Positions 1 through 15,163 of a DNA stretch of 64,000 bases are shown here, one piece after another (position 1 is the stretch's first letter; each line of letters begins with the position of its first letter). Origin of the DNA: Stenotrophomonas sp. 24(2023) (GTDB taxonomy: Bacteria > Pseudomonadota > Gammaproteobacteria > Xanthomonadales > Xanthomonadaceae). The notes below the pieces were generated by a model, which was not told where the DNA came from, ran no database searches, and worked only from the letters and a program-made list of their open reading frames with translations. Location: assembly GCF_030913365.1 (NCBI RefSeq), contig NZ_CP133160.1, positions 3,138,001-3,202,000 of the forward strand, read 5' to 3'. The position numbers were made by a program, and so were the translations under genes.

Positions 1-596
1 CCCAGCCCGGAGATCCTAGCGCTCAAGAGGGCGGCTTCCGGCAGGCGCTGCCGTCCCGACGCCCCCCCGAGAGGGTGTATCTCCTGACGAGTTCTCCCTC
101 GGCTGGATCCCTCGTAGCCGATCCTCTGGTCTTCGCGTCCGTCAGGACCCTGTCTCGGGAGCTCTGCATGCCCTTGCGGCCTCTGCCATGTATGAAGCCC
201 TGCTTCCGATCCGCGTCATACCGAGCCTGTGTGACGTGATCATTAGCCGGAGATCTGGGTGATGCAGTTGTCGTTCAAGCACTGATAGCGCAAGTCTGTC
301 TCTACCGGCCGGGTGCCGGTGCGGGCAGGGCTGACCGTCACTTTCGCGAGCGCGAGGAATGCTGCCGTTTGCCCCATGCTAAGCGCTACTAAAGCGCATG
401 CTGCCTGAGTTCAGCACGCAGGACGCGGGCAGCGGTGTATGAGTCGGTGCCTGCACTCGCGAGACATGGGGGCCATGTATGAAGCGTACGGTGGTGTTTG
501 GCCTTGTAAGGGCGGTTAAAAATGTGTGCCCTTCAAGTCTCATCCCCTGCGACCGATATGCTCAAGGATGCATAAAACAATCACCGGGACGGCTAC
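1..596. other. Gene-free stretch at left edge
   Basis: I see no convincing gene here. Short open frames exist on both strands, but none has a ribosome binding site or recognisable protein motifs. Gene-poor DNA like this is typical of the margin of an integrated element. The stretch may also hold remnants too decayed to read. Confidence 0.4.
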
Positions 597-935
597 ATGG
601 ATCGTTGGACGTGGATGATGGTAAGGATGTATGTGCCCGCACTTGGGGTCTTGGCGCTAGGGTTGCTACTGATGCTACCGTTGGGAACGCTCCGGGAGAG
701 TCCGGTGCTTGCAGGGGTGTATGCGATGGTGCGATGGGTCCCGGCGTTGGCTATCGCTGTATCGGTCACCCTTGGACTTGTCGCTACTCTAAGGCTTTGG
801 CGCTGGGATCAAGGGCGCAGCGCTTTGGTTTGCGAATGCGGTGGCTTGCTAGGACGGGAGCGTCGTGGGCGTTTTGGTGCATATCGAAAGTGTCTCGCCT
901 GCAACCGCAACGTCAATGATAGGTACTACACGTAG
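597..935 (+). CDS. Small membrane protein with C-terminal zinc-ribbon-like cysteines
   Basis: This 112-residue protein has two hydrophobic segments (about residues 10-32 and 45-65) and a cytosolic-looking C-terminal tail. The tail has a CEC motif and, about 18 residues later, a CLAC motif, which together could hold a structural zinc. I do not recognise the family. A longer overlapping frame (479-919) has no membrane segments or motifs and is less plausible. The ribosome binding site is weak. It stands alone, with gene-free DNA on both sides. Confidence is moderate because the hydrophobic pattern and paired cysteines look like a real protein. Confidence 0.5.
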   Translation: MDRWTWMMVRMYVPALGVLALGLLLMLPLGTLRESPVLAGVYAMVRWVPALAIAVSVTLGLVATLRLWRWDQGRSALVCECGGLLGRERRGRFGAYRKCLACNRNVNDRYYT

Positions 936-1716
936 GTTCGGTTCCGGGTCCGTACACCACAAGCCGCTGTCCGCCTTGAAAAGCAGGCATGAGCCCCATC
1001 TGGCTTTCCCTTGGGGTTTCACGGGCCCGAATTAGCTCAAAGTGACGGCTCCCCGGCTTACAAGGCACTTATCGGCACCTTGGCGGCCAGTTGAGGCTGG
1101 CTAAGTCGTTGTTCCCAAAGGACATCCGGCTATCTCTGGTGCCATGAGTAACTGCATCAGTACTGCAGCGCTCTTCGAACTGGATCGTTCCCCCCCCCCG
1201 TCTTGTGTGCCCAGGCCGTGCCCAAAGGTCACCCTTGGGTGGATTTCGCTGAAAATGTAAGGCTAAAAGATGCCATTTTAGGGGGCGCTTGTTGGACTGG
1301 CCTTGTCGGCTGTATCGTGCTTATTCGGAGGCGGGTTCAAGACACTTGCTGTCTTGAGGCTTGTGTTCTCGCAAGTGCTTGTTTGCGCTCCAGTCCACTA
1401 ATAGACTGGGAAAGGGGTGATTTGCATCAAGGGATCCAAGTCTCAGTGCAGACGAGGAATGTTCGCTCGTCCGTGCCGAAGTGAACGGAGGTGTAGATGC
1501 ACCACGTAAGAGCGATAGTTGAAGTGGCATTGGTTGTCTGACAGGAGACTGCCCAAGCAGCAGAGACCTTAACTTAATTGGCTCCTTGCTGCCCGGGCTA
1601 GCAGTTTTTAGCAAAGATCGCAAGGCGCCTGCAATCCAAGCTGGATCGTTGCCGTCCTGCGGTATCAGTTGCAGCTAGCATTTCTATCTCCCAGGGGGGG
1701 CGTAGTGGTTGTGGAA
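936..1716. other. Gene-free stretch before the five-gene operon
   Basis: About 780 bases with no supportable gene. Frames at 1203-1484 (+) and 1321-1623 and 1598-1939 (-) lack motifs, and the last overlaps the HIT gene in antisense. It contains a run of ten C at 1190-1199. The promoter of the downstream operon should lie here, but I could not pick out a convincing -35/-10 pair. Confidence 0.4.
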
Positions 1717-2355
1717 ATGGACCCAACGAAAATGACCGCGGCAGACGGATGCTTCTTGTGTGCGCCGCCTGAGGACCTTGTGTTTGCGAGAAAAGGGGGG
1801 GCTTATGCCCTGTGTGGCCTTGGCCCGATCGTCCCTTACTATACGATTGTAGCCACGCAAGAGCATGTCCCCTCTTGGGCTGACGATCATTCAGATGGTG
1901 GAAATTCGCTCTTCCCGCTTCTATCGGAAATACGTGCAATGTTTCGACGGATGGGGATGGAGGTTGCCGTTGGAGAGCATGGGAGAGTTCCCCTATGCGT
2001 CGAGACCTTGGTTGCCGACAGGCACTGCTATCACGCGCATCTTCTTGTGTTTCCTGATGTTCCCCAGCAGAGTCCTGAGTTGTTATCTAACTTTGGCGTC
2101 ACTGCAAATTACTCCGAATGGAGTGATTCTCTAGGGGCTGCAGGTCCTGGCGAGTATTTTCTATTATCTCAGGGCGAGCGCTCGTGGGATATTTGCTCGG
2201 AGCCAAGCGGGGCTCCCCGTCAGCTGCTAAGAAGAATGATAGCTAGTTCGATTGACAGAACAGAGCTTGCCTCTTGGAGGGATTATCCAAATCGCGACGA
2301 CGCTCTCCGTTACGCTAAGGAGCTTCGCGAAGAGTGGGAAAAACGCCATGGTTGA
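1717..2355 (+). CDS. HIT-superfamily nucleotide-binding protein (operon gene 1)
   Basis: The 212-residue protein shows features of HIT-family nucleotide hydrolases/transferases: an N-terminal CFLC cysteine pair (residues 12-15), an EHG segment (87-89), and an HCYHAHLLVFP motif. The last puts histidines at 103, 106 and 108 in a HxxHxH arrangement ending in proline. Family members bind a nucleotide phosphate with this triad and often cleave or transfer nucleoside monophosphates; the substrate here is unknown. I chose the ATG directly before DPTKMTAADG. The frame is also open upstream to a TTG at 1669. The last eight bases overlap the next gene, which indicates translational coupling. It is the first gene of the five-gene unit. 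Confidence 0.72.
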   Translation: MDPTKMTAADGCFLCAPPEDLVFARKGGAYALCGLGPIVPYYTIVATQEHVPSWADDHSDGGNSLFPLLSEIRAMFRRMGMEVAVGEHGRVPLCVETLVADRHCYHAHLLVFPDVPQQSPELLSNFGVTANYSEWSDSLGAAGPGEYFLLSQGERSWDICSEPSGAPRQLLRRMIASSIDRTELASWRDYPNRDDALRYAKELREEWEKRHG

Positions 2356-3538
2356 TAACATCGCCGGGCACGCACTGGATTTGCTATCCAACCGATTCTC
2401 TGAGTCGAGCGTCGAGGGAAAAGCGGGGCGAGGATGGGGGCAATTTATTGATGGAGATAGAGGGCATACGCAGATCGGACCCTATGGAACATCTGCCGGC
2501 CTGATCGTTAGTGCCCTCGCAAACGGTCAAGTTGACCTGCCTGCGAACAATGAGGCCGTTAAAGAGCTAGAAAATGAATGGAATTTGTACAGGAAGGGCG
2601 GGAGCGAGCAGCTCAAGCTTTTCTCTCAGAACGTTCGCTTGGCGCTCGTTCTGCTGGCTGTTCGAATGGCAGGTGCGCATTTTTCGAAGTTTGCGGATGA
2701 CATCCGAAGCGAGCTGATCGCCCGGCAGCTTTCCAATGGCTCCTGGGGGGAGTGGTGGGTTAGCAATAGTGAGCACGATGAGCGTAGTAGGACGCTTGCT
2801 TCGTCCATGGTAGTGCTGGGTCTCTCGCTGATGGCGCCTGGAAAGATGGGGGTGTGTGATGTTTCGGTGAAGTGGGCTCGTAATCAGTCGCCGTTGCCAA
2901 TGTCTGGCGCGGGTAAGTCAAAGCTGGATTCGGTGATGCACACGTTGGCTGTTGTGGTGAATCGCCAAGAAAATATGAGTGAGTTCTACCGCATTCTGAG
3001 ATCCTCCGCCTGGCGAGATCTAATGCAGGAGGGAGACTACCTTGCTGTTCACTTCTATGACTACAAATGGCGCGTAAAGAAGCGCCTTCTTCATGGTCGT
3101 GAATATGTTATTGCCCCCGTTAATCTGTTAGTTGGAATTGCGACGCTTCAGTGTAAGCAGAAGACAATGGCCTCATTGGTGGGCCTCGATTTGGCAAGCT
3201 CCGTGGCGCTGTCGATGATGTCGAAGAATGGACTGTATATCGTTGGCGAGGGTGCTAGGGCTTCTTCGCTAAATCAGGCCTGGGCTTCGATTCTCGTTGC
3301 AAGCAGTGCGGTCGATTTCGGGTCGCAAAATTTTCTGCGGATGGTACTTTTTCTCTTCAAGAAGCGGAAGAACAAGTTTTTTGATAAGTGGTTTCCAGCG
3401 ATCTCTGTATGTCTTGGGACCTTCCTGTCTGCGTGTGCGCCAGATGTTCCCGCCGCGAAGGGTTCAGCTGCTGTGCTTCTCGTTATTCTGGGGTGGATAA
3501 CGGCTAGCTCAATCAGTTCGGTCTTGCGAAGGTCATGA
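2348..3538 (+). CDS. Alpha/alpha-toroid-like (prenyltransferase/squalene-cyclase repeat) protein with C-terminal membrane hairpin
   Basis: I do not know the exact family of this 396-residue protein. Two segments resemble repeats of alpha/alpha-barrel terpenoid cyclase or prenyltransferase folds: a GWGQF..GPYGTSAGL stretch near residues 29-52, and QLSNGSWGEWW near 127-138 followed by a helix (RTLASSMVVLGLSL). The last 60 residues contain two hydrophobic segments separated by a short polar loop, so it is probably membrane-anchored at its C-terminus. The ATG at 2348 overlaps the end of the HIT gene, and the 3' end overlaps the next gene as ATGA. Whether it is catalytic or a scaffold or sensor cannot be told from sequence. 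Confidence 0.68.
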   Translation: MVDNIAGHALDLLSNRFSESSVEGKAGRGWGQFIDGDRGHTQIGPYGTSAGLIVSALANGQVDLPANNEAVKELENEWNLYRKGGSEQLKLFSQNVRLALVLLAVRMAGAHFSKFADDIRSELIARQLSNGSWGEWWVSNSEHDERSRTLASSMVVLGLSLMAPGKMGVCDVSVKWARNQSPLPMSGAGKSKLDSVMHTLAVVVNRQENMSEFYRILRSSAWRDLMQEGDYLAVHFYDYKWRVKKRLLHGREYVIAPVNLLVGIATLQCKQKTMASLVGLDLASSVALSMMSKNGLYIVGEGARASSLNQAWASILVASSAVDFGSQNFLRMVLFLFKKRKNKFFDKWFPAISVCLGTFLSACAPDVPAAKGSAAVLLVILGWITASSISSVLRRS

Positions 3539-4791
3539 GGATCTTCGATCCTCTTTATGGTGCATTCGACGTGCCGAAGTATGTCGAGGCCCTCGCGCTC
3601 GCCCCGGAGGTAAGGCGCCTTGGGAGCGTCCGACTTCTCAATACAACTGCGCCAACTACCGCGACGCTAGGTGATCTTCGCCGCTTTTCCCATACGATGG
3701 GCGTATTGCACATCTGCACGACCGCACGGTTGGCAGCTTTTGACGAGGAGGAGCGAAAGGCTCTGATAGCGTGCGTTCTAGTCCATGATGTGGGAACTCC
3801 TCCCTTTGGTCACCTCTTCGAGACGTTGCTCGCTGAGGAGATCGGCTGGAATCACGAGAGAGTCGCGAGTGACGTTCTCCTCGGGCAGAGTGTTTCCTCT
3901 AATGTCGCGCACGCAGTGTTCGCGAATAGAGGTGTCGGATTCTTAAAGATCCTTGGACGAAATGGCATTGATCAACGTCTGGTGCTCGACATCCTCTCTA
4001 AGCGCCATCCGCTGTCTGTTCTTCTATTCGGGACTTTGGATTTCGACAATCTTGATAACGTCGCCAGAATGGGGTGGGCTCTCGGACTAGAGTTTGATAA
4101 GAAATTTCCTTCGCGGCTCGCATCCCAGCTAGATGTTACGAGGGCCGGATGCTTAGTGCTATCAAGCGAATGGTCAGTTGACGTTCTAGAATGGCTTGCA
4201 CTGCGAAAGCGTGTCTACGAGGTGCTATTTTTTGACGCAATGACGGTTGCATCTCAGGCTGTGCTGTCTAGGGCTGTAGGGCAAGTTATGAGCTCGTCTG
4301 AAGTCTCGGTCGACGATTGGTCGCTGACTGATGAGCAGCTGTTGGCAAAAATGGCGGCAAGTCGATTCGTTGACAAACGCTTGCTAGATTCTTTTTTTGG
4401 TCAGCTCCCCTTGCTTGCTTACTGCATCCATTTGCGGTCGGGTACGGCTCTTGATACTTTGAGTAGGCGTGAAATTTATAATCATATTTGCAGTTCCTTG
4501 TCTGCTGATCTTAAGTCTGATGTATTGCCTTTTGTTCAAAGAGATAAAAGAACGTTTGGCAGAAGAATGGTTTTTAACGCGCCCGACTCACTAAGTGGTT
4601 GGTCTGTTGGTGAGGATTCAGGTGGCGTCGTGGTTTATGCATTCCTTTTTTCTGGAAGTCTTCATAAGGCTGCGAGAATTGAGGCGGTAAGACGATTCCT
4701 GTGCGAACTGGAGATCGACGAGGGCCAGGTGTTGCGAGTTTCCATTGAGCGCGAGATTCTTAATGAAATCCAGAGTAGCTTCAGTTTCTAG
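3535..4791 (+). CDS. HD-domain phosphohydrolase, dNTPase/COG1078-like
   Basis: The 418-residue protein has the intact metal-binding set of HD phosphohydrolases: RRFSHTMGVLHI with His53, LVHDVGTPPFGH with His84-Asp85 and His93, and a downstream LDFDNLDNVARM segment with aspartates at 169, 171 and 174. The pattern 'RRL..tRFxHSLGV..HD.G..PFxH' is typical of the dGTPase/SAMHD1-like branch, which hydrolyses dNTPs or other nucleotides. The substrate here is inferred only as a nucleotide. The ATG overlaps the preceding stop (ATGA). The C-terminal third is divergent. In an operon with a HIT protein and a DNA methyltransferase, it plausibly acts on nucleotides or modified nucleotides. Confidence 0.78.
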   Translation: MRIFDPLYGAFDVPKYVEALALAPEVRRLGSVRLLNTTAPTTATLGDLRRFSHTMGVLHICTTARLAAFDEEERKALIACVLVHDVGTPPFGHLFETLLAEEIGWNHERVASDVLLGQSVSSNVAHAVFANRGVGFLKILGRNGIDQRLVLDILSKRHPLSVLLFGTLDFDNLDNVARMGWALGLEFDKKFPSRLASQLDVTRAGCLVLSSEWSVDVLEWLALRKRVYEVLFFDAMTVASQAVLSRAVGQVMSSSEVSVDDWSLTDEQLLAKMAASRFVDKRLLDSFFGQLPLLAYCIHLRSGTALDTLSRREIYNHICSSLSADLKSDVLPFVQRDKRTFGRRMVFNAPDSLSGWSVGEDSGGVVVYAFLFSGSLHKAARIEAVRRFLCELEIDEGQVLRVSIEREILNEIQSSFSF

Positions 4792-4801
4792 GCTGCGGGA
4801 C

Positions 4802-5917
4802 ATGAATTGGGACTTTGAGGGGGCTCGCAGCGAGTCCGAATTTTCGGCGCTGCACTGGCACCCTTGTAGGTTTGTTTCGCAGATCCCGGCGGGGTTGATT
4901 AGTTTGTTATCTGACGAAGGCGATGTCGTGCTCGATCCTTTTCTTGGCTCGGGCACTACATTGGTTGAGGCGCAGCGTCTGAAGCGGCGGGGAATCGGTG
5001 TCGAGATTAATCCGGTTGCTGCGATGATCGCTTCGGGGAAAACTATTCCGAAGCGCCAGGCTGTAATCAAAAGAGCACTTCACGAATTGGCTGAGTTGGC
5101 GCGCGACCAGCTGGAAGGGGACTTGTTGAGGGCGCGCAAGCGGCAGCCGATTCTTCACCCTCCAACAGTGCAGATGGATAAGTGGTACATGCCTGACGTT
5201 GGGCGGCAGCTGAGTGTGCTTTGGGGGCTGTTGAATAGCTTGCGGGGCGATTCAAGCAAGCTTGGACATTTGGCCTTCTCTTCGATTCTTATTAGAGTCT
5301 GTCGAGAGACCAGACATTGGGGTTATATCTGCGACAATACTATGCCGTTGTCGAGCCGGCGGGCTGATGTCCTGATTGAGTTTCTTCGCTCCCTGTTGAT
5401 GATCGAGCGAGCCTACGCTGCGCGAGAGCTTTATCTCGGGCCGGGCGAACGTTTGCGGCGGGCTCAAGTAATAAATGGTGATGCGCTGGTGGAACTGGCG
5501 CGCTTGAAGGGCTCGGTCAATCTTGTTGTGACGTCGCCGCCTTACTTCGGAGTCAGCGACTACGCAAAGTCTCAGAGGCTAACAGCCGAATGGATGGGTG
5601 CCGATGTGGAGCCTGTACGTCTCAAAGAGATTGGGGCTCGAAGTAAGAGGCATCGTAAGGACGCCTACGAAAGTTACATGAGTGAGCTTGTTCGCGTAAT
5701 GGATGCTTGTCGCGAGAAATTGGTGGAGGGTGGCTTCTGCTGTCTGGTGGTCGGTGAGTCAGCTTCTAGGCGTGGGTACATCGCGCAGTTGCATGATGCT
5801 ATGGAAGGCATAGGGTTTCAAACTGTGCATTTGGTTGAGCGCGCGGTTTCCGAGCAGAGAAGGCAGAATCCCAGTATTCTTTCTGAGCAGATTGCTGTGT
5901 ATCGGAGGGTTAGATGA
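4802..5917 (+). CDS. DNA methyltransferase, N4/N6 amino type, motif I before TSPPY
   Basis: This is a SAM-dependent DNA methylase of about 371 residues. The SAM-binding motif I (DPFLGSGTT, residues 45-53, followed by GIGVEINP) comes first, and the catalytic motif IV (TSPPYFGVSDY, from residue 244) comes some 200 residues later. TSPPY is the exocyclic-amino class signature, most often N4-cytosine. The HWHPCRF..QIP stretch just before motif I is usual in a widespread permuted family. I chose the ATG 10 bases after the HD stop; an in-frame ATG at 4763 would overlap that gene. No restriction endonuclease is adjacent. The 3' end overlaps the next gene by ATGA. Confidence 0.82.
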   Translation: MNWDFEGARSESEFSALHWHPCRFVSQIPAGLISLLSDEGDVVLDPFLGSGTTLVEAQRLKRRGIGVEINPVAAMIASGKTIPKRQAVIKRALHELAELARDQLEGDLLRARKRQPILHPPTVQMDKWYMPDVGRQLSVLWGLLNSLRGDSSKLGHLAFSSILIRVCRETRHWGYICDNTMPLSSRRADVLIEFLRSLLMIERAYAARELYLGPGERLRRAQVINGDALVELARLKGSVNLVVTSPPYFGVSDYAKSQRLTAEWMGADVEPVRLKEIGARSKRHRKDAYESYMSELVRVMDACREKLVEGGFCCLVVGESASRRGYIAQLHDAMEGIGFQTVHLVERAVSEQRRQNPSILSEQIAVYRRVR

Positions 5918-6930
5918 GTACGCTTCTGGACATTGGCGAACGAGAGATTATTCGAAGGTTTCTTTCTCCGCTCGTGGATGGGTTGGGCGACGACTGTGCT
6001 CAGGTGCAGGTCGATGCTGGCGTGGCTGTCTTAACGACAGATCCAGTTCCAATTCCTGCTGCTTACGTGATTGGTGGTGACGACGATAAGTATTGGGTCG
6101 GGTGGCTACTGGTTGTTATAAATGCGTCTGATCTTGCGGCATCTGGTTGTGATCCAATTGGTCTCCTCGCTGCTATAGAGTGCCCCTCTGACTGGAGTGT
6201 TCGTGTATTTGAGCGATTGGTAGAAGGCATTAGGGATGCGTGTTTGGCTCATAAGATCCGATACTTGGGTGGTAACCTCAAGGAGGCGGGGATTTTCTCT
6301 GCGACAGGCACGGGTATTGGCTTGTGTGTCGATAGACAGCCGCTAAGTCGTAGTGGAGCAACTAGTGGTGACTTAATCGTGCTAGTGGGGAAGCCTCCAG
6401 CGTTCTGGAGGGATGCTCTGGCGGTTCGCTCAGGACGGCAGGCGGATCGCACCGGCCCTTTGTTTCGACCCATTGCACAGAACGAGGTCATGGCTGCCCT
6501 CAGTCGGCAAGGCTTGGTTAAGGCGTCTATCGATAACTCCGATGGTTTATTGCCGAGTCTGCAGCAACTCGCAGTCGCAAGCTCGGTATCTATAACGCTT
6601 GATTTGGTGCAGATGCGTGGTGGGGGGGCTGCAGCACTAGGTGACTCGGATCCCGTGAGACTTATGCTCGGATGGGGCGATTGGAACATGGTTTGTGCGA
6701 TTGACCCGGTGAATTTTGAGCGCGTAAAGCTGGTTGCGAAAAGCAATGATAGCGACTGTATTGTTATTGGTGTTGCGGATTTTGGAAGTCAGGTGTATTG
6801 GGGGAGTGGTGATCATAAGACTGTTGTGCCAAGGCTTGAGTCCGAGCGTTTTGCGAAAGACTCTTGGTTTTCAGAGGGCATCGACGGCTATGTCTCGAGA
6901 CTAATGGCAATACCGATTCCGGAAGCATAA
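5914..6930 (+). CDS. ThiL/PurM-superfamily ATP-dependent enzyme (operon gene 5)
   Basis: The 338-residue protein follows the plan of thiamine-monophosphate kinase (ThiL) and AIR-synthase-related enzymes: GLGDDCAQV at 23-31, TTDPVP at 41-46, GWLLVVINASDLAASGCDP at 63-81, GGN..EAGIFSATGTGIG near 119-136, RSGATSGDLIVLVG near 147-159, and SIDNSDGLLPSLQQL near 205-219. These are the nucleotide and Mg-binding loops of the PurM fold, so ATP-dependent phosphorylation of a small molecule is likely. It is not obviously a housekeeping ThiL: thiamine genes are absent, the substrate loop after TTDPVP is divergent, and it is coupled (ATGA) to the methylase. The real substrate is unknown. Confidence 0.75.
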   Translation: MSTLLDIGEREIIRRFLSPLVDGLGDDCAQVQVDAGVAVLTTDPVPIPAAYVIGGDDDKYWVGWLLVVINASDLAASGCDPIGLLAAIECPSDWSVRVFERLVEGIRDACLAHKIRYLGGNLKEAGIFSATGTGIGLCVDRQPLSRSGATSGDLIVLVGKPPAFWRDALAVRSGRQADRTGPLFRPIAQNEVMAALSRQGLVKASIDNSDGLLPSLQQLAVASSVSITLDLVQMRGGGAAALGDSDPVRLMLGWGDWNMVCAIDPVNFERVKLVAKSNDSDCIVIGVADFGSQVYWGSGDHKTVVPRLESERFAKDSWFSEGIDGYVSRLMAIPIPEA

Positions 6931-7340
6931 GAAGTAAATTGTCTAGAGTCACTTAGAGGCCTCGCAACTATAAGCCATTGCTCAGGCCAGGTTTGTCGCT
7001 TTGCCGTAGGGGCGAGTCGCCAATGTTCCGGAGGTTATTTGGCGTTGCTCTTGCTTACGACGCTCCTCTGTACGTGCCTAGCTCTAGATTGCTCTTGTAG
7101 ATGAGGAAGGTCCTCATTTTCGCCCGCGTCGCGGATGGTCTGGGGTTATGCGCAACCCAAGGCTTAGGTGGCGCTTACCATCAGTTGGGGCAGTTCCGGC
7201 CGATCTTCGGAACGGCGTCGCCAAGCGAGCTCGGTAAGGCGTGCAGGAGGCAACGCTCCATGCCGGCCCGCTTGGCCAGAGTAGGGCCTATCCGGTCAGT
7301 TGCTAGTCTCCTGGGCCGATAGTAGGGGCACTAGGCTGGG
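6931..7340. other. Intergenic stretch between the operon and the tRNA remnant
   Basis: About 400 bases without a supportable gene. A 73-codon frame at 7101-7322 has no motif or ribosome binding site and is probably chance. The 5' half of the tRNA whose 3' half begins at 7341 is not found here, so that tRNA is genuinely truncated. Confidence 0.4.
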
Positions 7341-7385
7341 TTCGTAATGCGTAGGTCGCAGGTTCGACTCCTGTTTCCGGCACCA
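7341..7385 (+). repeat. 3' half of tRNA-Thr(CGU), probable attachment-site scar
   Basis: The stretch reads as an anticodon loop TTCGTAA (anticodon CGT, Thr), anticodon-stem 3' strand, variable loop, T arm with GGTTCGACTCC, acceptor 3' strand and CCA end. The upstream bases do not pair as a D arm, anticodon stem or acceptor 5' strand, so it is not a functional tRNA. Integrative elements commonly recreate exactly this 3' part of a tRNA when they insert. A second copy with five differences lies at 13618-13662. The five-gene operon therefore ends right at a probable element boundary. Confidence 0.65.
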
Positions 7386-7394
7386 TGTTTGATG

Positions 7395-7423
7395 AAAAGC
7401 CCCGGCCTTGGTCGGGGCTTTTT
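7395..7423 (+). terminator. Rho-independent terminator behind the tRNA remnant
   Basis: AAAAGCCCCGGCC and its complement flank a short TTGG loop, followed by a T run. This is a strong bidirectional-looking hairpin ten bases after the CCA end, as expected for the original tRNA terminator. A degraded version follows the second tRNA copy near 13670-13700. Confidence 0.8.
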
Positions 7424-7478
7424 GTTTGTGGTGGGATGTTGCCGGACCATGACCGGCGGAATGGGCAGCTGCTGGTCC

Positions 7479-7504
7479 GGTAGTGCCAGCCCATGGCTGG
7501 CAGC
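7479..7504 (+). repeat. Single GTAG-type REP palindrome
   Basis: GGTAGTGCCAGCC is followed by its near-complement (GGCTGGCAGC). The GTAG head and imperfect hairpin match the REP-like elements scattered through Stenotrophomonas genomes. The same type recurs at 29582 and 37556 in this window. Confidence 0.6.
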
Positions 7505-7675
7505 TCAGGAATTACAAACCTCGCGGCCAGCCCGGCTTCCCAGGCGCTTAGCTCTTCGCACTGTTCCTGACCTGCAAAGCACTGCTGGCCACTCCCGTGC
7601 TATGAATACTCAGCCTTGCTTTGAGGCACTTTCAGGGATTGGAAGGATGCGCAGGTTCGGGGGAACTGCAGGCGT

Positions 7676-8482
7676 GTGTCGACCCGCTTCAGAGGATTTG
7701 AAGATCGAGTTCGCAAGTTGGGGGCATTTGGCACCTGGCTTTGCTGCGTGCTGCTGATTGGCCTCGGCGTGTCGCCAGCCGCAGTCGCCCAGACGACGGT
7801 TACATACATCCATACGGACGCCTTGGGCTCAGTTGTGGCTGAGAGCGATGCCAACGGAAACGTGATCAAGGGCTATGACTACGAGCCTTACGGCGCCGTG
7901 GTGGGCGGGGAAGTCACTGACGGACCAGGGTATACCGGGCATGTGAGTGACTCGGCGACCGGACTGAGTTACATGCAGCAGCGGTACATGGATCCGCAGT
8001 TGGGTGTGTTCCTGTCGGTGGATCCGGTGACGTCGTATGAACAGCCGGTGGGGCAGTTCAATCGGTACCGGTATGCGAACGGAAATCCGTATGGGTTCAT
8101 TGACCCGGATGGGCGTCAAGTCTCAGATCCGCGATCATGCCATGACTCCGGAACTTGCATCACAGTCGAGCAAGCTCAGCAACAAGTTGGTATGGATGGC
8201 CGCCTGCTTCTGAAAATTCTTGGTGGTGCAGCCGGCGCAGGCGCCACGGGGGGCGCAATCGCTGAGGGCGGCGCTATCTTGTCACCGTTGATCGGAGCGA
8301 TGCGCGCCACGTATCTGGCAGGAAGGGATTTCGGTCATGCCAGAACGTACATTGAATCCATTGCCCGAGAACTTGGCCCGACGGGTGATCGCTCTGGCCG
8401 CAGGACAAGCGAGTTTGAAGGTCAGGGGGGAGGCGCAGGAGCCACACAAATGTTTGATCGCTTGACCCGGGGGGGCTTCTGA
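7676..8482 (+). CDS. Secreted mini-RHS protein with polymorphic toxin C-terminus (frameshifted)
   Basis: The 268-residue frame starts with a signal-peptide-like segment (LCCVLLIGLGVSPAAVAQ). A complete short RHS-associated core follows (YIHTDALGSVVAE, YDYEPYGAVV, GYTGH, LSYMQQRYMDPQLGVFLSVDP, NRYRYANGNPYGFIDPDGR, about 45-145), then a variable C-terminus. RHS cores end at the PxxxxDPdG motif, after which the toxin tip begins. Here the tip has a Gly/Ala-rich linker and a short region ending in FDRLTRGGF. The frame stops just after a run of seven G (8469-8475); removing one G would extend it to 8654. The GTG start is weakly supported. The long RHS barrel is missing, so this is a compact, exported carrier. 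Confidence 0.72.
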   Translation: MSTRFRGFEDRVRKLGAFGTWLCCVLLIGLGVSPAAVAQTTVTYIHTDALGSVVAESDANGNVIKGYDYEPYGAVVGGEVTDGPGYTGHVSDSATGLSYMQQRYMDPQLGVFLSVDPVTSYEQPVGQFNRYRYANGNPYGFIDPDGRQVSDPRSCHDSGTCITVEQAQQQVGMDGRLLLKILGGAAGAGATGGAIAEGGAILSPLIGAMRATYLAGRDFGHARTYIESIARELGPTGDRSGRRTSEFEGQGGGAGATQMFDRLTRGGF

Positions 8483-8654
8483 GGCTCGGGATGGCGGACG
8501 ACTTGGCAAGTTGGGTGATGGCTCTATCGTACAGATGAGCGCGCGGACTACAAGGGATGGGGGCCGGGAGACGTCTGTTCGTTTGAGTACCGAGAGGACG
8601 GGCACTCGGATCCGAGAAGTGATCAAAGTTCGTTTCAGAGACAAACAGGAGTGA
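8483..8654 (+). pseudogene. Out-of-frame tail of the RHS toxin
   Basis: Read one base out of phase with the preceding gene, this stretch is open for 57 codons (EARDGGRLGKLGDGSIVQM..., ending IKVRFRDKQE). Its 'l.dGs.vqmR..t...g..t..i' style resembles the end of many toxin tips that precede an immunity gene. The restored stop (TGA at 8652) overlaps the immunity gene GTG as GTGA, the spacing expected of an intact toxin-immunity pair. It is either a real frameshift, phase variation at the G7 tract, or a sequencing error. Confidence 0.6.
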
Positions 8655-9139
8655 GGTCAATGCACGGTGATAGGTCAACGCTCTTTCGGCGCTACGTAGA
8701 AGGTCGGCAGAAAGCCATATTCCCATGGTCTCTCTCGATCGTAGATTGCTTCTTCATTAGCAATGCATTCATGACGTTAAGTGGCTCAGGCTCTGCGAAT
8801 TTGTTGAGAATATCCGATGAAGGAAAACAAATTGAGAGGGTGGAGATCGGTGACCCATACGATATGTACGATGTTGATACCGGAGCTGGTGGCGCTGAAG
8901 TCGTCCTTCTACACGAAGCCTCAGGATCCGCTTGCTATTGGGATGTTCACGAACGATTCGTTGCAGTCACCGGGAATGAGAGATTTTTGGAATTGGTTCG
9001 CCCTTATCCGGTTGACATAGAGCGGCATCGCTATGTGGAGGCGATGCTTGATATTGGGCGCGTTCGTGATGGTGAATCGCCGGAGGGGATATACGAGGCA
9101 CTTTCGTCCGACGTTCACTCAGGGTCACGCGGCAGCTGA
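8651..9139 (+). CDS. Putative immunity protein for the first RHS tip
   Basis: A 162-residue soluble protein of a family I do not recognise. It follows the frameshifted toxin tail immediately and is probably coupled to it through a GTGA overlap; an in-frame ATG lies at 8660. It has no signal peptide or membrane segments, as expected for a cytoplasmic antidote. Acidic patches (VEIGDPYDMYDVDTGAGGAE) fit many immunity proteins. The role is inferred from position only. Confidence 0.55.
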   Translation: MRSMHGDRSTLFRRYVEGRQKAIFPWSLSIVDCFFISNAFMTLSGSGSANLLRISDEGKQIERVEIGDPYDMYDVDTGAGGAEVVLLHEASGSACYWDVHERFVAVTGNERFLELVRPYPVDIERHRYVEAMLDIGRVRDGESPEGIYEALSSDVHSGSRGS

Positions 9140-9190
9140 GCTCGTGATTAATGGGCGGGCACTGATCCCATTGGTCTTTGATAGGTATCC

Positions 9191-9409
9191 ATGACCTGGA
9201 TTATCCAAAGGGCAGTTGTCCGCATTGAAGGGTCACCCGATGGCCGATTTGTTCAGGCAAAAGGGCCCGACGGTCAGCCCACTGGGGTTCGAATAGATGG
9301 CGGGCACAAGCCATCGACTCATCCTGATCCCCGCACCCAGCAACCGCATGGTCATGTTCCCGGTGTAACCAATGCCGACGGAACTCCCTGGCTTCCGATC
9401 AAACAATGA
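9191..9409 (+). pseudogene. Displaced C-terminal fragment of an RHS toxin (tip 2)
   Basis: This 72-codon frame has no core. It looks like the last part of a toxin domain: FVQAKGPDGQPTGVRIDGG, then KPSTHPDPRTQQPHGHVPG, ending in DGTPWLPIKQ. Conserved histidines in an HPDP..QPHGHVPG context are typical of the ends of nuclease-type polymorphic toxins in Pfam-style families, though I cannot name one. There is no ribosome binding site, and the upstream part is absent. It is therefore best read as an orphan tip that could be restored to an RHS core by recombination. A candidate immunity gene follows 18 bases downstream. Confidence 0.6.
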
Positions 9410-9427
9410 GTTGGAGTAACGTAAGTC

Positions 9428-9790
9428 ATGGAAACTGAAGCTGCGATCATTGAGATGACGAAGCTTGTGAGAGAGTTTGCGTTGGGTTCCGTTGATGCCC
9501 AAGCTTTCATTGAGAAGTACTCGAATTTCTACTACTACGAAGCGCTGGACGGACATGAAGCTTCAAGTGCGCTGCACCCCGAGAGAAAAATGAAGCTCGG
9601 GCCCGCTGTCGAGCTGCATCGCCGTGTTCAGGAGGACGTGGTGAACAAGATCTCGTTCGATGCGGGACTGTCAGCTGAAGCGATGAGGATGGCTGAGCGA
9701 CTCTCTCCGGCGGAGGCGCGGGAGCGGGCGCTGAGGATATGTGCAGATGTTGGGATTGAAGTCGTTCTGTCGGCGATCAATGCCACATGA
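9428..9790 (+). CDS. Putative immunity protein for tip 2
   Basis: A 120-residue, mainly helical, acidic cytosolic protein (METEAAIIEMTKLVREF..., with ALHPERKMKLGPAVE in the middle). I do not recognise the family. It lies just behind the displaced toxin tail ending at 9409, and the preceding bases (GGAGTAACGTAAGTC) supply a plausible ribosome binding site. Its stop overlaps the start of the next frame. The antidote role is inferred from position. Confidence 0.55.
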   Translation: METEAAIIEMTKLVREFALGSVDAQAFIEKYSNFYYYEALDGHEASSALHPERKMKLGPAVELHRRVQEDVVNKISFDAGLSAEAMRMAERLSPAEARERALRICADVGIEVVLSAINAT

Positions 9791-10569
9791 AGCCGTCCGG
9801 CGACAGGTTGTCACCACACGGCGAAGAAGCGGCAGTGGCGGAATTTGCTAGTCGCAGCGGAGTCGAATGGCTTGCCTTGCTTAACGAGCGGGGGATGATC
9901 TCCAGAGTGACCTGCTTGCGGAGTTGCGGATGTTTCTTGTCGGTCGATCCGGTGGCCGCTTATGACAGCGGCGATTGGCGACATCTCAACCGCTACGGAT
10001 ACGCCTACAACAACCCCTATAAGTTCAACGATCCGGATGGTCGATTCGGTGTTGTCGGCGCTCTAATTGGTGCCGGTATTGAAGCAGGTTTACAAATTGC
10101 TACGGAAGGGAAGGTCACCAGTTGGACTTCCGTGGCAGTTGCGGGTGCTGTCGGTACTGTCACTGGTGGATTGGGTGGAGTGATTGGCAAAGCTGCAGTG
10201 AGCGGCACAGTCACGGCAGGACGTGCAGTTGTTGCAGTAGCGGCAGTTGGTGGCGCCGCTGGCGCCACTGGAAAAGTAGCCGAAGGCGCATTGACTGGGG
10301 AAGGAGTGAGTGCCAAAGAAGTCGTTGTTGCTGCGGTCGCTGGAGCAGTTGGCGGTGGAGTTGGTGGAAAGGTTGGGCTCAGTACGGTCGCAAAGGTTGA
10401 AAGCATGGCGGCGAGTAATGGCTTGGCCGGTCATGTCGGCAAGACGACCCAGGCTGCCATGCAGCAAGGTGGCAAGATAGTTGAACCAAGCACCTCGGCT
10501 GGGCAGAAGGTGGGTCAGACTGCGGCTGATGCCGCTTCGTCTTACACGGAAAAGAGAGTCAACAAGTAG
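9787..10569 (+). CDS. Orphan RHS core fragment fused to a Gly/Ala/Val-rich, probably membrane-active tip (tip 3)
   Basis: Residues 1-45 are unrelated leader sequence. Residues about 48-85 are the end of an RHS core (FLSVDPVAAYDSGDWRHLN, YAYNNPYKFNDPDGR). The remaining 175 residues are dominated by G, A and V in long hydrophobic stretches (VAVAGAVGTVTGGLGGVIG, AVVAVAAVGGAAGATG, VVVAAVAGAVGGGVGG). Such repeats resemble pore-forming or membrane-targeting linkers. There is no signal peptide and no N-terminal RHS repeats, so it is probably a silent tip cassette. The following multi-membrane-span gene is consistent with immunity to a membrane-acting toxin. Confidence 0.6.
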   Translation: MKPSGDRLSPHGEEAAVAEFASRSGVEWLALLNERGMISRVTCLRSCGCFLSVDPVAAYDSGDWRHLNRYGYAYNNPYKFNDPDGRFGVVGALIGAGIEAGLQIATEGKVTSWTSVAVAGAVGTVTGGLGGVIGKAAVSGTVTAGRAVVAVAAVGGAAGATGKVAEGALTGEGVSAKEVVVAAVAGAVGGGVGGKVGLSTVAKVESMAASNGLAGHVGKTTQAAMQQGGKIVEPSTSAGQKVGQTAADAASSYTEKRVNK

Positions 10570-10580
10570 CAGGCGATGGA

Positions 10581-11021
10581 ATGGAATTTGAATCAATCAG
10601 GCCGGTATTCAGTGGTCTTGCTGGTGGTTTCTTGGCCATCCTTTTTTGCCATGCCCTTTCGCGCTGGGTTCCCCGGGTTTGCAATGGAAAGCGCGTCGCG
10701 ACACTTGTCAGGGAGAATCGCGCAGCAATCTGGCTGGCCAATGGGTTTTTCCTAGGCGGTCTATTGGCTGGTATCGCTATTTATCAATTTGGCTTTCTTC
10801 CTGATGACGACTGGCGAGGGATTGCGCTGGGGGCAGGCGGCGGTAGTATTGCCGCCCTTGGAGAGCTCGCAGTGCTCGCCTTGGTAGCCGGCCGCAGTCC
10901 AAAAGAGGCGTATGTGGCATACGCTGTTTCCCAGAAGACTCCGGTCGTACTGATTTACGGGATACTCATACTGTGCACCGCATCATTTGCAGCGGCTGTT
11001 GCGAGCTTGTTGGCTGGTTAA
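10581..11021 (+). CDS. Four-span membrane protein, putative immunity protein for tip 3
   Basis: The 146 residues contain about four hydrophobic spans (near 10-28, 50-70, 82-105 and 120-145), separated by short basic or acidic loops. I do not recognise the family. It starts 12 bases after tip 3 and is on the same strand. An inner-membrane antidote would match a toxin that attacks the inner membrane, but this is inference from position and topology. Confidence 0.58.
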   Translation: MEFESIRPVFSGLAGGFLAILFCHALSRWVPRVCNGKRVATLVRENRAAIWLANGFFLGGLLAGIAIYQFGFLPDDDWRGIALGAGGGSIAALGELAVLALVAGRSPKEAYVAYAVSQKTPVVLIYGILILCTASFAAAVASLLAG

Positions 11022-11212
11022 TGCATTCGTATGCTCACCCTGACAACGCCGGAGCAATGAGCGCGCCAATGGCCTGCCATGCCAGTTCTTGCCCAAGGGC
11101 GCGGACCTGCCCGTGGCGAGTCAGGAGCATCTCAACCATGTGGCATGTTTGATGAATACCGTCCGCGTCCGGCGCTCCCAGAAGAGCTGCCAAAGCGGAG
11201 CTGAGATTATTT

Positions 11213-11548
11213 ATGGACACTGCGATTGCGCTTTTGCAAAGATGGTACTCGAATCACTGTGACGAAGATTGGGAGCATTCCTATGGTATCAAGATAGACA
11301 CTTTGGATAACCCAGGGTGGATTCTTACTGTCGACCTGGTGAACACGGAGTTGAGTGAATATTCGCTGCCCAGGACGCGCATTGATCGTTCGGAAGTAGA
11401 TTGGATTCAGTCCGAGATTTCGGATGGGCGCTATATCGCTTGCGGTGGAGCGCTCAATCTGGAGGAGATCGTGCTTCAGTTTTTGAACTTCGCCGAGGGT
11501 CCCCGCGTCGACAGTCAGGATGCGCGAACCGACGGCGTAGGGCAGTAG
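11213..11548 (+). CDS. Imm53-type immunity protein
   Basis: The 111-residue protein matches the Imm53 pattern as I know it: an aromatic W near the start, WEHSYGIKIDTLDNPGW near residues 20-36, a 'dL..TeL' strand, and a WI motif followed by a Gly-rich turn before a helical end (LNLEEIVLQFLNF). Imm53 proteins protect against RHS/CDI-type toxin tips in the cytoplasm. A GGAG lies about 12 bases upstream. The cognate toxin is not intact: only a short open tail ending at 11204 could be its remnant. Confidence 0.75.
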   Translation: MDTAIALLQRWYSNHCDEDWEHSYGIKIDTLDNPGWILTVDLVNTELSEYSLPRTRIDRSEVDWIQSEISDGRYIACGGALNLEEIVLQFLNFAEGPRVDSQDARTDGVGQ

Positions 11549-11739
11549 GTTTTTCCGTTCAGCGTTCGGAGCAAGTTTGTGCTCTGTCGTCGCAGACATT
11601 AGGCATCGTTAGCGGACGATCCGCATCCAAACACCGCCCTGCATCCTGTCTTAAGTTGGCTCTATCGCCACTTACGGACCCCGTCCAATGTCATCCGCTC
11701 TCACCAGGCGCATTGTTCTCACCGCTGATTGCTGAAAAT

Positions 11740-11931
11740 ATGTCGGCGGCAAGTCCGACGTCGCCACAAGGAATCGGAAACCACATAATCAACACAACTC
11801 AAGCCGTTGGTGGGGCTGGCGGCGCTGCTGCAGTTCAGGGTGCGGCATCCGCTGCTGGTCGTGCCGCTGACATTGCAAAAGGGAGCGGGGTCTCTGCTGT
11901 ACAAAAGAAAGTCGAAGGTCGGATCAAATAA
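11740..11931 (+). pseudogene. Displaced RHS toxin tail (tip 5)
   Basis: A 63-codon Ala/Gly-rich fragment (NTTQAVGGAGG, AASAAGRAADIAKGSG) ends in a basic tail (KKVEGRIK). Its composition and end resemble tip 3 (EKRVNK end). No core precedes it, so it is probably a leftover tip. A small membrane protein gene follows nine bases later, repeating the toxin-then-immunity order. Confidence 0.45.
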
Positions 11932-11940
11932 GGTGGTCGG

Positions 11941-12117
11941 ATGAAAAAGCTAAAGTTGCTTCTGTTCGCAGAGCTTCCGGCGTTGGTCGTCGCACTGGGT
12001 ATTGGGTTGATCTTCGGATACGGAGGCGGATTGTATAAGGGAGCGTTGCTGACTGTTGTAGTCTTCCTAATCCTGCAGCCCTTCATGCTACTGCCATTTT
12101 TTCGGAAGAATCGATAG
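11941..12117 (+). CDS. 58-residue two-span membrane protein, putative immunity protein for tip 5
   Basis: ATG AAA AAG opens a frame encoding a 58-residue protein with two hydrophobic spans (LLLFAELPALVVALGIGLIF and ALLTVVVFLILQPFMLLPFF) and basic ends (MKKLK, RKNR). The upstream AGGTGGTCGG gives a good ribosome binding site. The small size and the position directly behind a Gly/Ala-rich tail argue for a membrane immunity protein. No family is recognised. Confidence 0.6.
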   Translation: MKKLKLLLFAELPALVVALGIGLIFGYGGGLYKGALLTVVVFLILQPFMLLPFFRKNR

Positions 12118-12198
12118 CTGGATGTATGTGGGAACCAGATAGGCCTACCAATATTGGGCTTGCTGATAGTTGCAGCGTCGGTACGGAGACGGATAGTC

Positions 12199-12561
12199 AT
12201 GATGATGAAGGCGTGGGGCTTCCCAATCACGGGGGACAGGGTGGTTGAGGCATTAAGAGAGAACTTCAGTACGAATGATATTTGGCTGCTGTTGGATTTG
12301 GATGTCCCGTCGGGAGCGAATTCACAAGCGATCTTGAATCACCTTCGAGAGCGCATGGTGAACAGCCCGTTAGAGGTGTCTACGGATGATCTGTGCGAAG
12401 CGCTTGCTGACGCGCCGCAAGTTTGGGTGCTGGACATTCGGTTGTCATCCGACCATGAAGTTCAGCTTTACATTGAAGATGGTGAGGTGTTCGAAGAGAA
12501 TCTTGACAGTATGGTCAGATCCGGAAATCGTGCTGGATCGAGAGATCCACAGTTGAAGTGA
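12199..12561 (+). CDS. Hypothetical cytosolic protein in the RHS-tip array
   Basis: I chose the first ATG of an ATGATGATG run, preceded by GGAGA, which gives 120 residues; the frame is open upstream to 12154. It contains a helical N-terminal part (VVEALRENFSTNDIWLLLDLD), an acidic middle, and a strand-like end (VWVLDIRLSSDHEVQLYIEDGEVF). No family is recognised. Its size, acidity and place among tip/immunity pairs suggest an orphan immunity gene whose toxin was lost. Confidence 0.5.
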   Translation: MMMKAWGFPITGDRVVEALRENFSTNDIWLLLDLDVPSGANSQAILNHLRERMVNSPLEVSTDDLCEALADAPQVWVLDIRLSSDHEVQLYIEDGEVFEENLDSMVRSGNRAGSRDPQLK

Positions 12562-12690
12562 AATGAAGATGTCGGTCTCATTCCATTTGCTTCTGCCGTT
12601 GGTTGAAATCGCAGCGAAGCGTAACTTTCAGCTTTCTCAAGAATTCTACGATCGATTGCTATCCCCTTTGCCAGGGCTGCGGTATCGGAG

Positions 12691-13037
12691 GTGCAAGGTC
12701 GCACCGTTGCCGGGGTGAAGGTTGGAGATAGCCCTGCTGACACCAGGGCGGCGCTGGAGGATGCTGGGTACATGGGAACGTGGATATCGAACGACGCTGG
12801 CACGGAATCGGGAATGCTTCACAATGTTCCGTCTATGAGGATGGAGGTTAGAGTCATGGACGGAGGGAAAAGCATCCACCCACAGTGTCGGTGACGCGAG
12901 AAGGTAACCCGCGTCAGACCGTAAATCCTGAGGATGGTAAGAGTTTGGCAATATTCCCAGGGATCAGCAGCGCACGGGAAGTCATGTTTCCTATCGAGAG
13001 AAACCGTGATGACGCGAATCGAGAAGATGGAAGTTGA
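12691..13037 (+). pseudogene. Frameshifted RHS toxin tail (tip 7)
   Basis: The first part, in one frame, reads VQGRTVAGVKVGDSPADTR, then an EDAGYMGTW and SGMLHNVPSMRMEVRVMDGG stretch. About residue 62 the sense continues in another frame as VTREGNPRQTVNPEDGK, ending at TGA 13035. The two halves together make a coherent toxin-domain end with a Gly/His-rich strand and the common 'REGNPRQTVNPEDG' tail. One base appears lost (or two gained) around 12865-12885. The open stretch reaches back to 12625, but no RHS core is present. The restored stop overlaps the start of the next gene. Confidence 0.5.
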
Positions 13038-13518
13038 TGTGGTAGCTGCGCGCTCAAGCTTGGAGGGCATGCTGCTTGGTTCATATCTTGATTCATTCAA
13101 TGTAAGTAGCCTTCAGGTGGCGTTGAGGTTCATCAATGCATCGGCGTGCCCTGATAAATCGCTGTACGTGGATCTGAGCTTCTCATGTGCGGCCACTGTC
13201 CGTAATGGCCTCGTATCTTCCGGTAATGTCGGCAATGTTGATTTCTTTGTGGGTAGGGCGGCATTTCTCCCCGAGGTCTATGGAAAGATTGGCCTTGAAA
13301 TCTCTGGGGTTGAGCTCGATTCCGAGGGGGGGCTTGTTCTTTCTATGGGGGACTCAGTTATTGAATTGGTTGCTAGGGACGAGGGTGTGGGGATTGAGAA
13401 TTCTGTCTGGAAAGTCGTGATTGAGCGTCCGGCCGGCTCTGGACCATCTTTAGGTGGCTCTATTTCCTGTGTTTCAATGGGAAATTCTGTTATGTTCATG
13501 CTCGGCGTTGAGCGGTAG
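13009..13518 (+). CDS. Putative immunity protein for tip 7
   Basis: 169 residues starting MTRIEKMEVDV; the frame is open upstream to 12934, but the ATG at 13009 overlaps the restored toxin end and is the likely start. The protein is beta-rich, with a repeated strand pattern and Gly/Ser turns (GGLVLSMGDSVIELV, GGSISCVSMGNSVMFML). No signal peptide, no membrane span, no family recognised. The antidote function is inferred from the neighbourhood. Confidence 0.5.
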   Translation: MTRIEKMEVDVVAARSSLEGMLLGSYLDSFNVSSLQVALRFINASACPDKSLYVDLSFSCAATVRNGLVSSGNVGNVDFFVGRAAFLPEVYGKIGLEISGVELDSEGGLVLSMGDSVIELVARDEGVGIENSVWKVVIERPAGSGPSLGGSISCVSMGNSVMFMLGVER

Positions 13519-13617
13519 TTGTGATTCTCTAATGGCTTGGCATGGGGGAGGTCCATGCTGAACTCTCTCCCCGGACGCGGGTTGCCTAGATCAGTTGCTG
13601 GGGTTCAGATGGCTTGG

Positions 13618-13662
13618 TTCGTAATGCGAAGGCCGCAGGCTCGACTCCTGTTTCCGGCGTCA
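13618..13662 (+). repeat. Second, diverged copy of the tRNA-Thr(CGU) 3' half
   Basis: This matches the 45-base remnant at 7341-7385 in 40 of 45 positions, including the TTCGTAATGCG anticodon part and ACTCCTGTTTCCGGC. The CCA end is changed to TCA. Homology also continues into the following ATGAAAAGCCCGG, a worn copy of the terminator. The two copies are direct repeats flanking the whole RHS-tip array, as if the array had been carried in as, or captured into, an element using this tRNA. Confidence 0.6.
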
Positions 13663-13718
13663 GTTGCATGAAAAGCCCGGTAATCCCCCCCCGCTTTTAG
13701 CGTTCGCCAAAAGTGGAG

Positions 13719-13850
13719 CTATGCAGCCGATGCCAACTTCTGCATTGGTGTGATGCCGCCGAGTGCCATGTTGGGACGCTCGTAGTTGTACGTCCATAGC
13801 CAACGAGTGGCCTTTTCCTGCACCTGCTCGATGGTGTCGAACGGGGGCGT
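13719..13850 (-). pseudogene. IS3-family transposase OrfB C-terminal remnant
   Basis: On the minus strand about 43 codons read F-D-T-I-E-Q-V-Q followed by WLWTYNYERPNMALGGITP and MQKLASAA-stop. This is the typical C-terminus of IS3-family (IS407/IS1404-like) OrfB integrases, with the conserved YN..RPN.ALGG.TP motif. Homology ends abruptly near 13850, so only the last part survives. It marks the right end of the tip array. Confidence 0.75.
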
Positions 13851-13975
13851 GGCCAGGCGAACATCACGCTGGCGGGATCGCAGTACGGGGGCGATTGCAT
13901 GGCATCAAGGTGCCTTGCAGACGTGGGTGCTGCTTTGAGTGTGGACATGCGTGATGAGCTGGAGCCCGGAGCCCT

Positions 13976-14461
13976 ATGGACAGCAGGATACAGACGGATG
14001 ATCGCAGGTGGTTGCTTCCCTCGAATCGAGGAATGGAACTCCTTGAGTGTGAGCTGATGCTCGATTCCGGACCTGAGATGGTGTTCCGCATCAGGATCTC
14101 CGGAGATTACTGGGCACGGGCTGAGACGCAATCCTACGAGGGGACCGCTCCGGACTTCGGTGTCGTGCTTCAGCAGGTCATTTTCAGGCGTGAGTGGCTG
14201 GTTGATCTCATCAGGGATTTTGAGCGTTGGCTGGACACCGGACAGCCATTCTCATGTCGGTTCGAAGGGTATGGTGGTGGGCAGATCATCTGCATGTCCC
14301 TGGGCGATGATCCGCGTTTTGTCAGGTCCACGCACAAGGCGGTCTTTGCATTGACCTACACCTCAGGGTTGGTGATGAACTCCGGTTGCAGCTTCGTGAT
14401 TGATCAGACCTGTGTTCGAATGGCCGTGGAAGGGATTTCCACTTGCCTGGCCGTCCGGTAG
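13976..14461 (+). CDS. Hypothetical protein, immunity-like
   Basis: 161 residues, or 142 if translation starts at the ATG at 14033 (MELLECELMLDS), which fits better with the strand-rich start. It has a mixed alpha/beta pattern with a central W-rich helix (EWLVDLIRDFERWLDTG) and a glycine turn (EGYGGGQIICMSLGDD). No family recognised. Upstream bases from about 13850 are unassigned. It may be a solitary immunity gene left by tip turnover. Confidence 0.5.
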   Translation: MDSRIQTDDRRWLLPSNRGMELLECELMLDSGPEMVFRIRISGDYWARAETQSYEGTAPDFGVVLQQVIFRREWLVDLIRDFERWLDTGQPFSCRFEGYGGGQIICMSLGDDPRFVRSTHKAVFALTYTSGLVMNSGCSFVIDQTCVRMAVEGISTCLAVR

Positions 14462-14470
14462 TGTCGGTTT

Positions 14471-14968: not shown

Positions 14969-15163
14969 GTGATGCGTGAGCGCCACGTGCCGCTTCCGTT
15001 GCCCATTGCACTCATCCCACTGCGGCCAAGGTCATGGCTTGAGGAAGGCGATGCACTCGGTCGATGATCGATGGATTGAACGTGTGCTTGCAGAAAAAGG
15101 ACATGCAGATCGGCATATGCAGCAATCAGGCACGGCGACCGCTCGTCAATCGAGGTTTACTCT

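Follow-up and report, generated by a model that had tools for sequence, protein, structure and literature searches.

Clover, among the described systems closest to the locus reported here, consists of the dGTPase CloA and the nucleotidyltransferase CloB (PMC12265719). Our locus is an operon of five genes (hereafter the cassette) in a 64,000-nucleotide stretch (hereafter the window) of the Stenotrophomonas sp. 24(2023) genome, which is a single contig of 4.52 Mb. Like CloA (PMC12265719), the gene 3 protein has an HD metal site and an HE dyad at matching motif spacing, and the cassette, like Clover, has partner enzymes that are potentially nucleotide-making. Unlike Clover, the cassette has five genes, including those for a methylase, a HIT-like protein and a ThiL-like protein, two of its HD motifs are altered, and no nucleotidyltransferase was recognised among the five proteins in family searches, which left gene 2 without assignment. 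In the same searches no CD-NTase was recognised among the five genes, which sets the cassette apart from the cyclic-oligonucleotide-based anti-phage signalling system (CBASS); the likeness to CBASS is a CapV-like gene beside the cassette at one locus only (189.8 bits; cut-off, 200). Nor did these searches recognise among the five genes a nuclease family of the kind that a type II restriction-modification operon would carry, although gene 2 may encode one of an unfamiliar type.

We found that the five genes, carried on mobile DNA in the present genome, form a unit whose order is conserved in distantly related hosts, and we consider it rather probable that the cassette is a defence system of some kind. 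As a kind, we place it among the nucleotide-centred conflict systems. Such effectors, i.e., those targeting nucleotides, are reportedly the subject of Nicastro et al. (NAR 2023), where an earlier mention of the five-gene set is possible. An earlier note, made from the letters of this DNA, knew of no described system with this set, and we too found no match in the libraries and literature searched, including passages of PMC12265719, PMC12042053, PMC12839542 and PMC10853773 and a term search of PMC7159879. The operon is compact and co-inherited, most of its enzymes are recognisable, and we found no described function for it, which makes it directly testable. If it serves defence, it would add a system based on nucleotides in which a SAMHD1-fold enzyme, a ThiL-like kinase, a HIT-like protein and a DNA methylase are newly combined, and possibly a new nucleotide; if it does not, it points towards a hitherto unknown pathway of nucleotide or DNA modification.

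The five open reading frames (ORFs) occupy window positions 1717-6930 on one strand:

1717..2355, + strand: gene 1, HIT-like protein with CxxC, H50, E87-H88-G89 and H106xH108, and Leu at the third triad His
2348..3538, + strand: gene 2, helical protein whose C-terminal region includes a hydrophobic segment; fold tentatively an alpha/alpha toroid
3535..4791, + strand: gene 3, HD phosphohydrolase of the SAMHD1 fold, altered in two of the family motifs
4802..5917, + strand: gene 4, DNA methylase of the N4/N6 type, motif I preceding motif IV (TSPPY)
5914..6930, + strand: gene 5, kinase-like ThiL paralogue of the AIRS superfamily

The starts (1717, 2348, 3535, 4802 and 5914), the overlaps of 8, 4 and 4 bases and the one 10-base gap given in the earlier note were all reproduced.

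Conservation and mobility of the cassette

Gene 3 was used to scan 84,980 species genomes by exact peptide patterns of that one protein, so that the 5 loci recovered are a lower bound. All five genes, with order and strand kept, were present in 5/5 of these loci, which belong to Stenotrophomonas geniculata, Xanthomonas bonasiae, a Rhodospirillales metagenome-assembled genome (MAG), Bradyrhizobium huanghuaihaiense and an unclassified bacterial MAG. The earlier note had made its view depend on whether the five families are ever found together elsewhere; they are, in conserved order and also outside the Xanthomonadaceae. Identity to the window cassette is 97-99% in S. geniculata and 83-89% in X. 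bonasiae, and varies from 19 to 49% across the five genes in the Rhodospirillales MAG, Bradyrhizobium and the unclassified MAG. Spacing at the gene junctions is tight throughout (-38 to +16 bases, given the start codons chosen in our analysis). Chance neighbourhood was considered and rejected, given that gene order is retained in six cassettes. Among the five aligned cassettes, with the near-identical window/X. bonasiae pair set aside, the Rhodospirillales and Bradyrhizobium copies are mutually closest in all five genes, which fits the expectation for a jointly inherited unit. Between the window and X. bonasiae, codons with synonymous-only and amino-acid-changing differences number 50/32, 105/68, 120/48, 105/41 and 97/52 for genes 1 to 5, respectively, a pattern indicative of purifying selection acting on every gene.

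The cassette is rare, and a DNA methylase is present in 6/6 cassettes. The gene 5 profile matched once (153 bits) in 385 genomes of one class, taken as Alphaproteobacteria on the strength of a GcrA match, and the surrounding 13.3-kb stretch held no gene 2, 3 or 4 matches; the gene 3 profile gave 3 matches (54-57 bits) in the same 385 genomes. Matches to the gene 1 profile at E <= 1e-9 were found in 17 of 398 genomes; two of the 17 are the cassette, and the neighbourhoods of the best 2 of the 15 non-cassette matches were inspected. IMG/VR scans with alignments of genes 1, 2, 3 and 5 returned zero relatives, and that with the gene 4 alignment one partial locus. In plasmid records, relatives of gene 3 were found in 7 (one at >=80% coverage), of gene 4 in 17 and of gene 1 in one, with none for gene 5 at E <= 1e-10 or gene 2 at E <= 0.01. 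Phage records contained relatives of gene 4 (3 records), gene 3 (4) and gene 5 (6), every one <30% identical.

The cassette is cargo of an integrase island between tRNA-Thr repeats. An exact 88-bp repeat (L003:5214-5301 and window 7341-7428) bounds the 16.2-kb segment that holds it; the left copy starts within tRNA-Thr(CGT) (L003:5183-5258) and continues beyond the tRNA end, and a tyrosine integrase is encoded within (L003:8459-9763; PF00589, E 4.8e-31). The accessory location beside a tRNA scar that had been proposed from the letters is a mobile island with these repeats at both ends. The X. bonasiae cassette lies after the same tRNA species (L005:7216-7291), and a second repeat copy was looked for at this locus and not found.

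The five proteins

Most of the genes had been said in the earlier note to belong to nucleotide- or DNA-handling families and all key motifs to be intact. The assignments of gene 3 as an HD phosphohydrolase, gene 4 as a DNA methylase and gene 5 as a ThiL-like enzyme hold, with core catalytic residues kept in all three; the statement on motifs fails for gene 1, in which the HIT triad is incomplete.

The SAMHD1 fold covers nearly the full length of gene 3, which places the protein in that superfamily by whole-length fold. Residues H53, H84-D85, D171, H93 and E96 are invariant among the aligned cassettes, leaving the metal site and HE dyad, the catalytic core, intact. In 5/5 aligned cassettes, the His of HDxGH is replaced by Thr and DY..RD by DN..RM, so that gene 3 lacks the two motifs by which dGTPase/SAMHD1 dNTPases are recognised. 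The cassette enzyme shares the fold and the metal ligands of the SAMHD1/COG1078 HD phosphohydrolases and differs from them in these two motifs, as five aligned PDB members (2q14, 9mr6, 2hek, 2o6i and 6tx0) keep both the His and DY..RD.

Gene 4 matched PF01555 (E 1e-24; 88.2 bits against a cut-off of 26.7) and the PADLOC model MTase_II (E 3e-31), and its motif I precedes TSPPY; by family score and motifs, it is an N4/N6 DNA methylase. Gene 5 matched PF00586 (E 8e-19) and belongs to the AIRS superfamily. It resembles the thiamine-phosphate kinase ThiL in fold family and in its GDD and SDG motifs, and differs in that the GGD of ThiL is GGN in five aligned copies and that its score against the ThiL model TIGR01379 (130.5 bits) is below the cut-off of 184.15, so it is not a ThiL equivalog. 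The true ThiL of this genome scores 350.6 bits and is encoded at C1:2553958 (L002), next to the gene for lumazine synthase (143.5 bits; cut-off, 84.6). Gene 5 as an ordinary thiamine gene was ruled out by these two scores, and it is a paralogue distinct from the true ThiL.

Gene 1 had been called a HIT protein with intact HxxHxH. The protein alone had no match in Pfam, and its profile matched PDB with a best E of 0.0057; 8 of the 10 matches at E <= 1, all weak, were HIT or HIT-related, and the HIT-related chains had E values of 0.006-0.3. It is thus HIT-like by weak profile similarity, sharing CxxC, H50 and HxH with HIT and CwfJ/DcpS-like proteins. CxxC, H50, EHG and H106xH108 are common to the five aligned cassette proteins, all five of which have Leu or Ala in place of the third triad His, unlike four wider relatives (16-22% identical) that retain the canonical residue. 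GalT-type transferases likewise have no third triad His, and the replacement would favour transfer over hydrolysis.

Gene 2 gave zero family matches in Pfam, PADLOC, PHROGs and PDB sequences, a best NCBIfam match of 12 bits (E 0.14), and zero Foldseek matches in PDB at E <= 0.001. A weak structural model tentatively suggests a terpenoid-cyclase-like alpha/alpha toroid. Of the earlier description as a toroid membrane protein, the membrane part agrees with a hydrophobic segment in most cassettes, and the toroid part finds weak backing. A toroid link to an AAA protein of Parabacteroides, suspected by eye, was dropped as too weak (hhalign probability, 0.1%).

The probable defence role and its alternatives

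Three loci are distant from the window, and two of them have long flanks; the third, in the Rhodospirillales MAG, is on a contig too short for its neighbours to be assessed. Families with anti-phage roles adjoin the cassette in 2/2 of these long flanks. In Bradyrhizobium (L007), McrB (PRK11331, E 1.3e-54) and McrC (PRK09736, E 8.9e-28) genes lie upstream, both below the equivalog cut-offs; the McrC gene also matched PF10117 (E 1.8e-40), and PADLOC gave zero matches for its protein despite the Pfam and NCBIfam matches. The CapV-like patatin of this locus, with the CBASS lipase score given above, lies 10 bases downstream of the cassette and matched effector phospholipases in PADLOC (E 3e-68). 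Directly downstream of the cassette in the unclassified MAG (L008) is a gene that matched PD-T7-3 (E 1.3e-35), and a reverse transcriptase is encoded upstream (RVT_1, E 8e-11). A defence system is the best reading of a cassette that is mobile, rare and co-inherited, that combines a DNA methylase with nucleotide-enzyme families, and that has anti-phage neighbours in both distant hosts with long flanks. The nucleotide-signalling or DNA-modification defence island envisaged in the earlier note is partly supported by the mobile operon, its conserved order and these neighbours. Among the tested proteins of the window's own island, none was recognised as a defence protein.

More tentatively, and with slightly less than even confidence, we propose that this horizontally carried, co-inherited cassette is an anti-phage system working on nucleotides as follows. 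The gene 4 methylase would mark host DNA, so that the system could sense either incoming DNA that carries no mark or an imbalance of nucleotides caused by infection. The SAMHD1-fold hydrolase would act on a nucleotide other than a standard deoxynucleoside triphosphate (dNTP). Production or resetting of that phosphorylated nucleotide would fall to the ThiL-like kinase and to the HIT-like protein, for which the missing third triad His suggests possible transfer instead of hydrolysis. The gene 2 protein, probably anchored in the membrane in most cassettes, would bind the nucleotide or execute the final, growth-stopping step. Bolder still, and in our view unlikely, is an immune system of a new class that links a self-marking DNA methylase to a nucleotide cycle of its own. 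In it, a phosphorylated nucleotide of a non-standard kind would be made by the ThiL-like kinase together with a HIT protein of the transfer type and removed by the SAMHD1-fold enzyme, and the mostly membrane-anchored protein would respond to it. The HIT gene would then represent one branch of a broader group of operons in which HIT proteins of this lineage are combined with varying nucleotide enzymes.

Several observations weigh against the proposed anti-phage system. Family searches recognised no nuclease or known killer domain in the five proteins, although gene 2 may hide a nuclease of a novel family, and gene 2 of Bradyrhizobium has no hydrophobic segment. The sole non-methylase PADLOC match was a dGTPase model to gene 3 at 20.2 bits; the PADLOC matches of gene 4 were generic type II methylases (24 of the 25 best listed of 74), and six proteins of the window's own island had zero PADLOC matches. 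Informative flanks are available for only two distant loci, the genes around the X. bonasiae cassette resemble housekeeping genes by eye, and distant HIT relatives stand in biosynthetic-looking operons (L028 and L029).

These last operons, together with L026, also speak for a pathway of nucleotide metabolism or DNA hypermodification, in which the kinase-like, HIT, HD and methylase enzymes would synthesise a modified nucleotide or base, or install it, with an indirect effect on defence at most. This alternative is somewhat unlikely, as the HIT proteins in question are just 16-22% identical to gene 1 and retain the third His, L026 has an SspD gene ~5 kb away, and gene 4 is closest to DNA methylases. 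Depletion of dNTPs upon infection, as in defence of the dGTPase/Clover type with the other genes regulating the HD enzyme, agrees with the SAMHD1 fold and the intact metal site and HE dyad of gene 3; the two motif changes in all aligned cassettes, the low score of the dGTPase model and the failure of family searches to recognise any nucleotidyltransferase partner make it doubtful. House-keeping or stress metabolism of the island with no link to phages, e.g., clean-up of damaged nucleotides, would suit the enzyme families and seems more improbable again, given the methylase in every cassette, the rarity, the island location in the window and the anti-phage genes in both long distant flanks. That the locus is a stripped restriction-modification system, a methylase plus passengers, is very improbable: gene 4 does match type II methylases, and distant plasmid homologues (27-29% identical; three records) precede a second methylase and a phospholipase-D-like gene, yet family searches recognised no restriction enzyme in the cassette and all five genes are co-conserved across large distances.

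Related operons and further features

The HD and methylase genes also occur as a pair outside the cassette. On plasmid pA of Rhizobium etli (L009), a related HD gene (174 bits) is followed directly by a related methylase gene (29% identical to gene 4), as in the cassette; unlike the cassette, this 17-kb locus has no gene 1, 2 or 5 profile matches. The pair thus travels with other partners too. By eye, the gene ahead of it looks FAD-binding, with a weak match to MnmC; the neighbourhood also includes a gene of the phosphorylase superfamily. A Sinorhizobium plasmid (L020:4874-11085) has ThyX, a related DNA methylase and three more genes in a row.

Wider relatives of the HIT gene stand in diverse operons. 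In an alphaproteobacterium (L026:7249-12116), HIT-like, dCTP-deaminase-like, unassigned, kinase-like (APH/TCAD9), ThiL-like and Nudix-like genes form an operon, for which the nearby SspD gene (E 8e-132) is a defence context; its ThiL-like protein matched 4 Acinetobacter plasmid records (one, on examination, annotated thiL), and its HIT protein matched 3 records. On a Rhizobium leguminosarum plasmid (L029:2197-10353), the HIT gene overlaps a cysteine-desulfurase-like gene in a cluster that further encodes PRPP-synthase-like, thymidylate-kinase-like, Glycos_transf_3 family and methyltransferase proteins; the cluster looks like one that makes a nucleotide-derived metabolite. A class V aminotransferase gene likewise overlaps the HIT gene on Lactococcus plasmid pUC06C (L015:5787-7627), and a Parabacteroides plasmid (L028:3355-8641) has ThyX, AAA protein, HIT, PRA-PH/MazG-like and dihydrofolate reductase genes consecutively. 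In two genomes (L048:8286-9426 and L049:7860-9139), the HIT gene overlaps a small gene whose product looks membrane-bound by eye; in L048 the pair comes after an SMC-like gene set that is Wadjet-like by eye (JetC, just 19.6 bits; zero NCBIfam matches). Taken together, these six operons leave room for a metabolite-making role.

Two further features of the window bear on the cassette:

1238..1716, + strand: leader upstream of gene 1, conserved in both Stenotrophomonas and X. bonasiae
7341..7428, + strand: right attachment repeat of the island, an exact copy of the tRNA-Thr 3' end and the 43 bp downstream

A single blastn match extends from position 1238 across the cassette to the X. bonasiae locus (L005), and the leader is a probable control region. 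An Rfam scan of window 1-16000, leader included, gave zero families at the gathering score; predicted promoters were not in excess (3 sites against 3.9 in shuffles), and sites resembling terminators were more numerous than in shuffles (13 against 7.6).

The island also carries an ORC-CDC6-like ATPase gene (L003:6536-8041; PF24389, E 4.6e-11) on the strand opposite the integrase. Immediately to the right of the island, ORFs at window 7676-10569 have an RHS-repeat-like core by eye and may be what remains of a polymorphic-toxin locus. At window 11612-11713, a fragment matches the first part of the island's integrase gene at 86% identity; this fragment and a partial third copy of the attachment repeat (window 13618-13658; 41 bp, 93%) are perhaps what is left of a second, decayed island in tandem.
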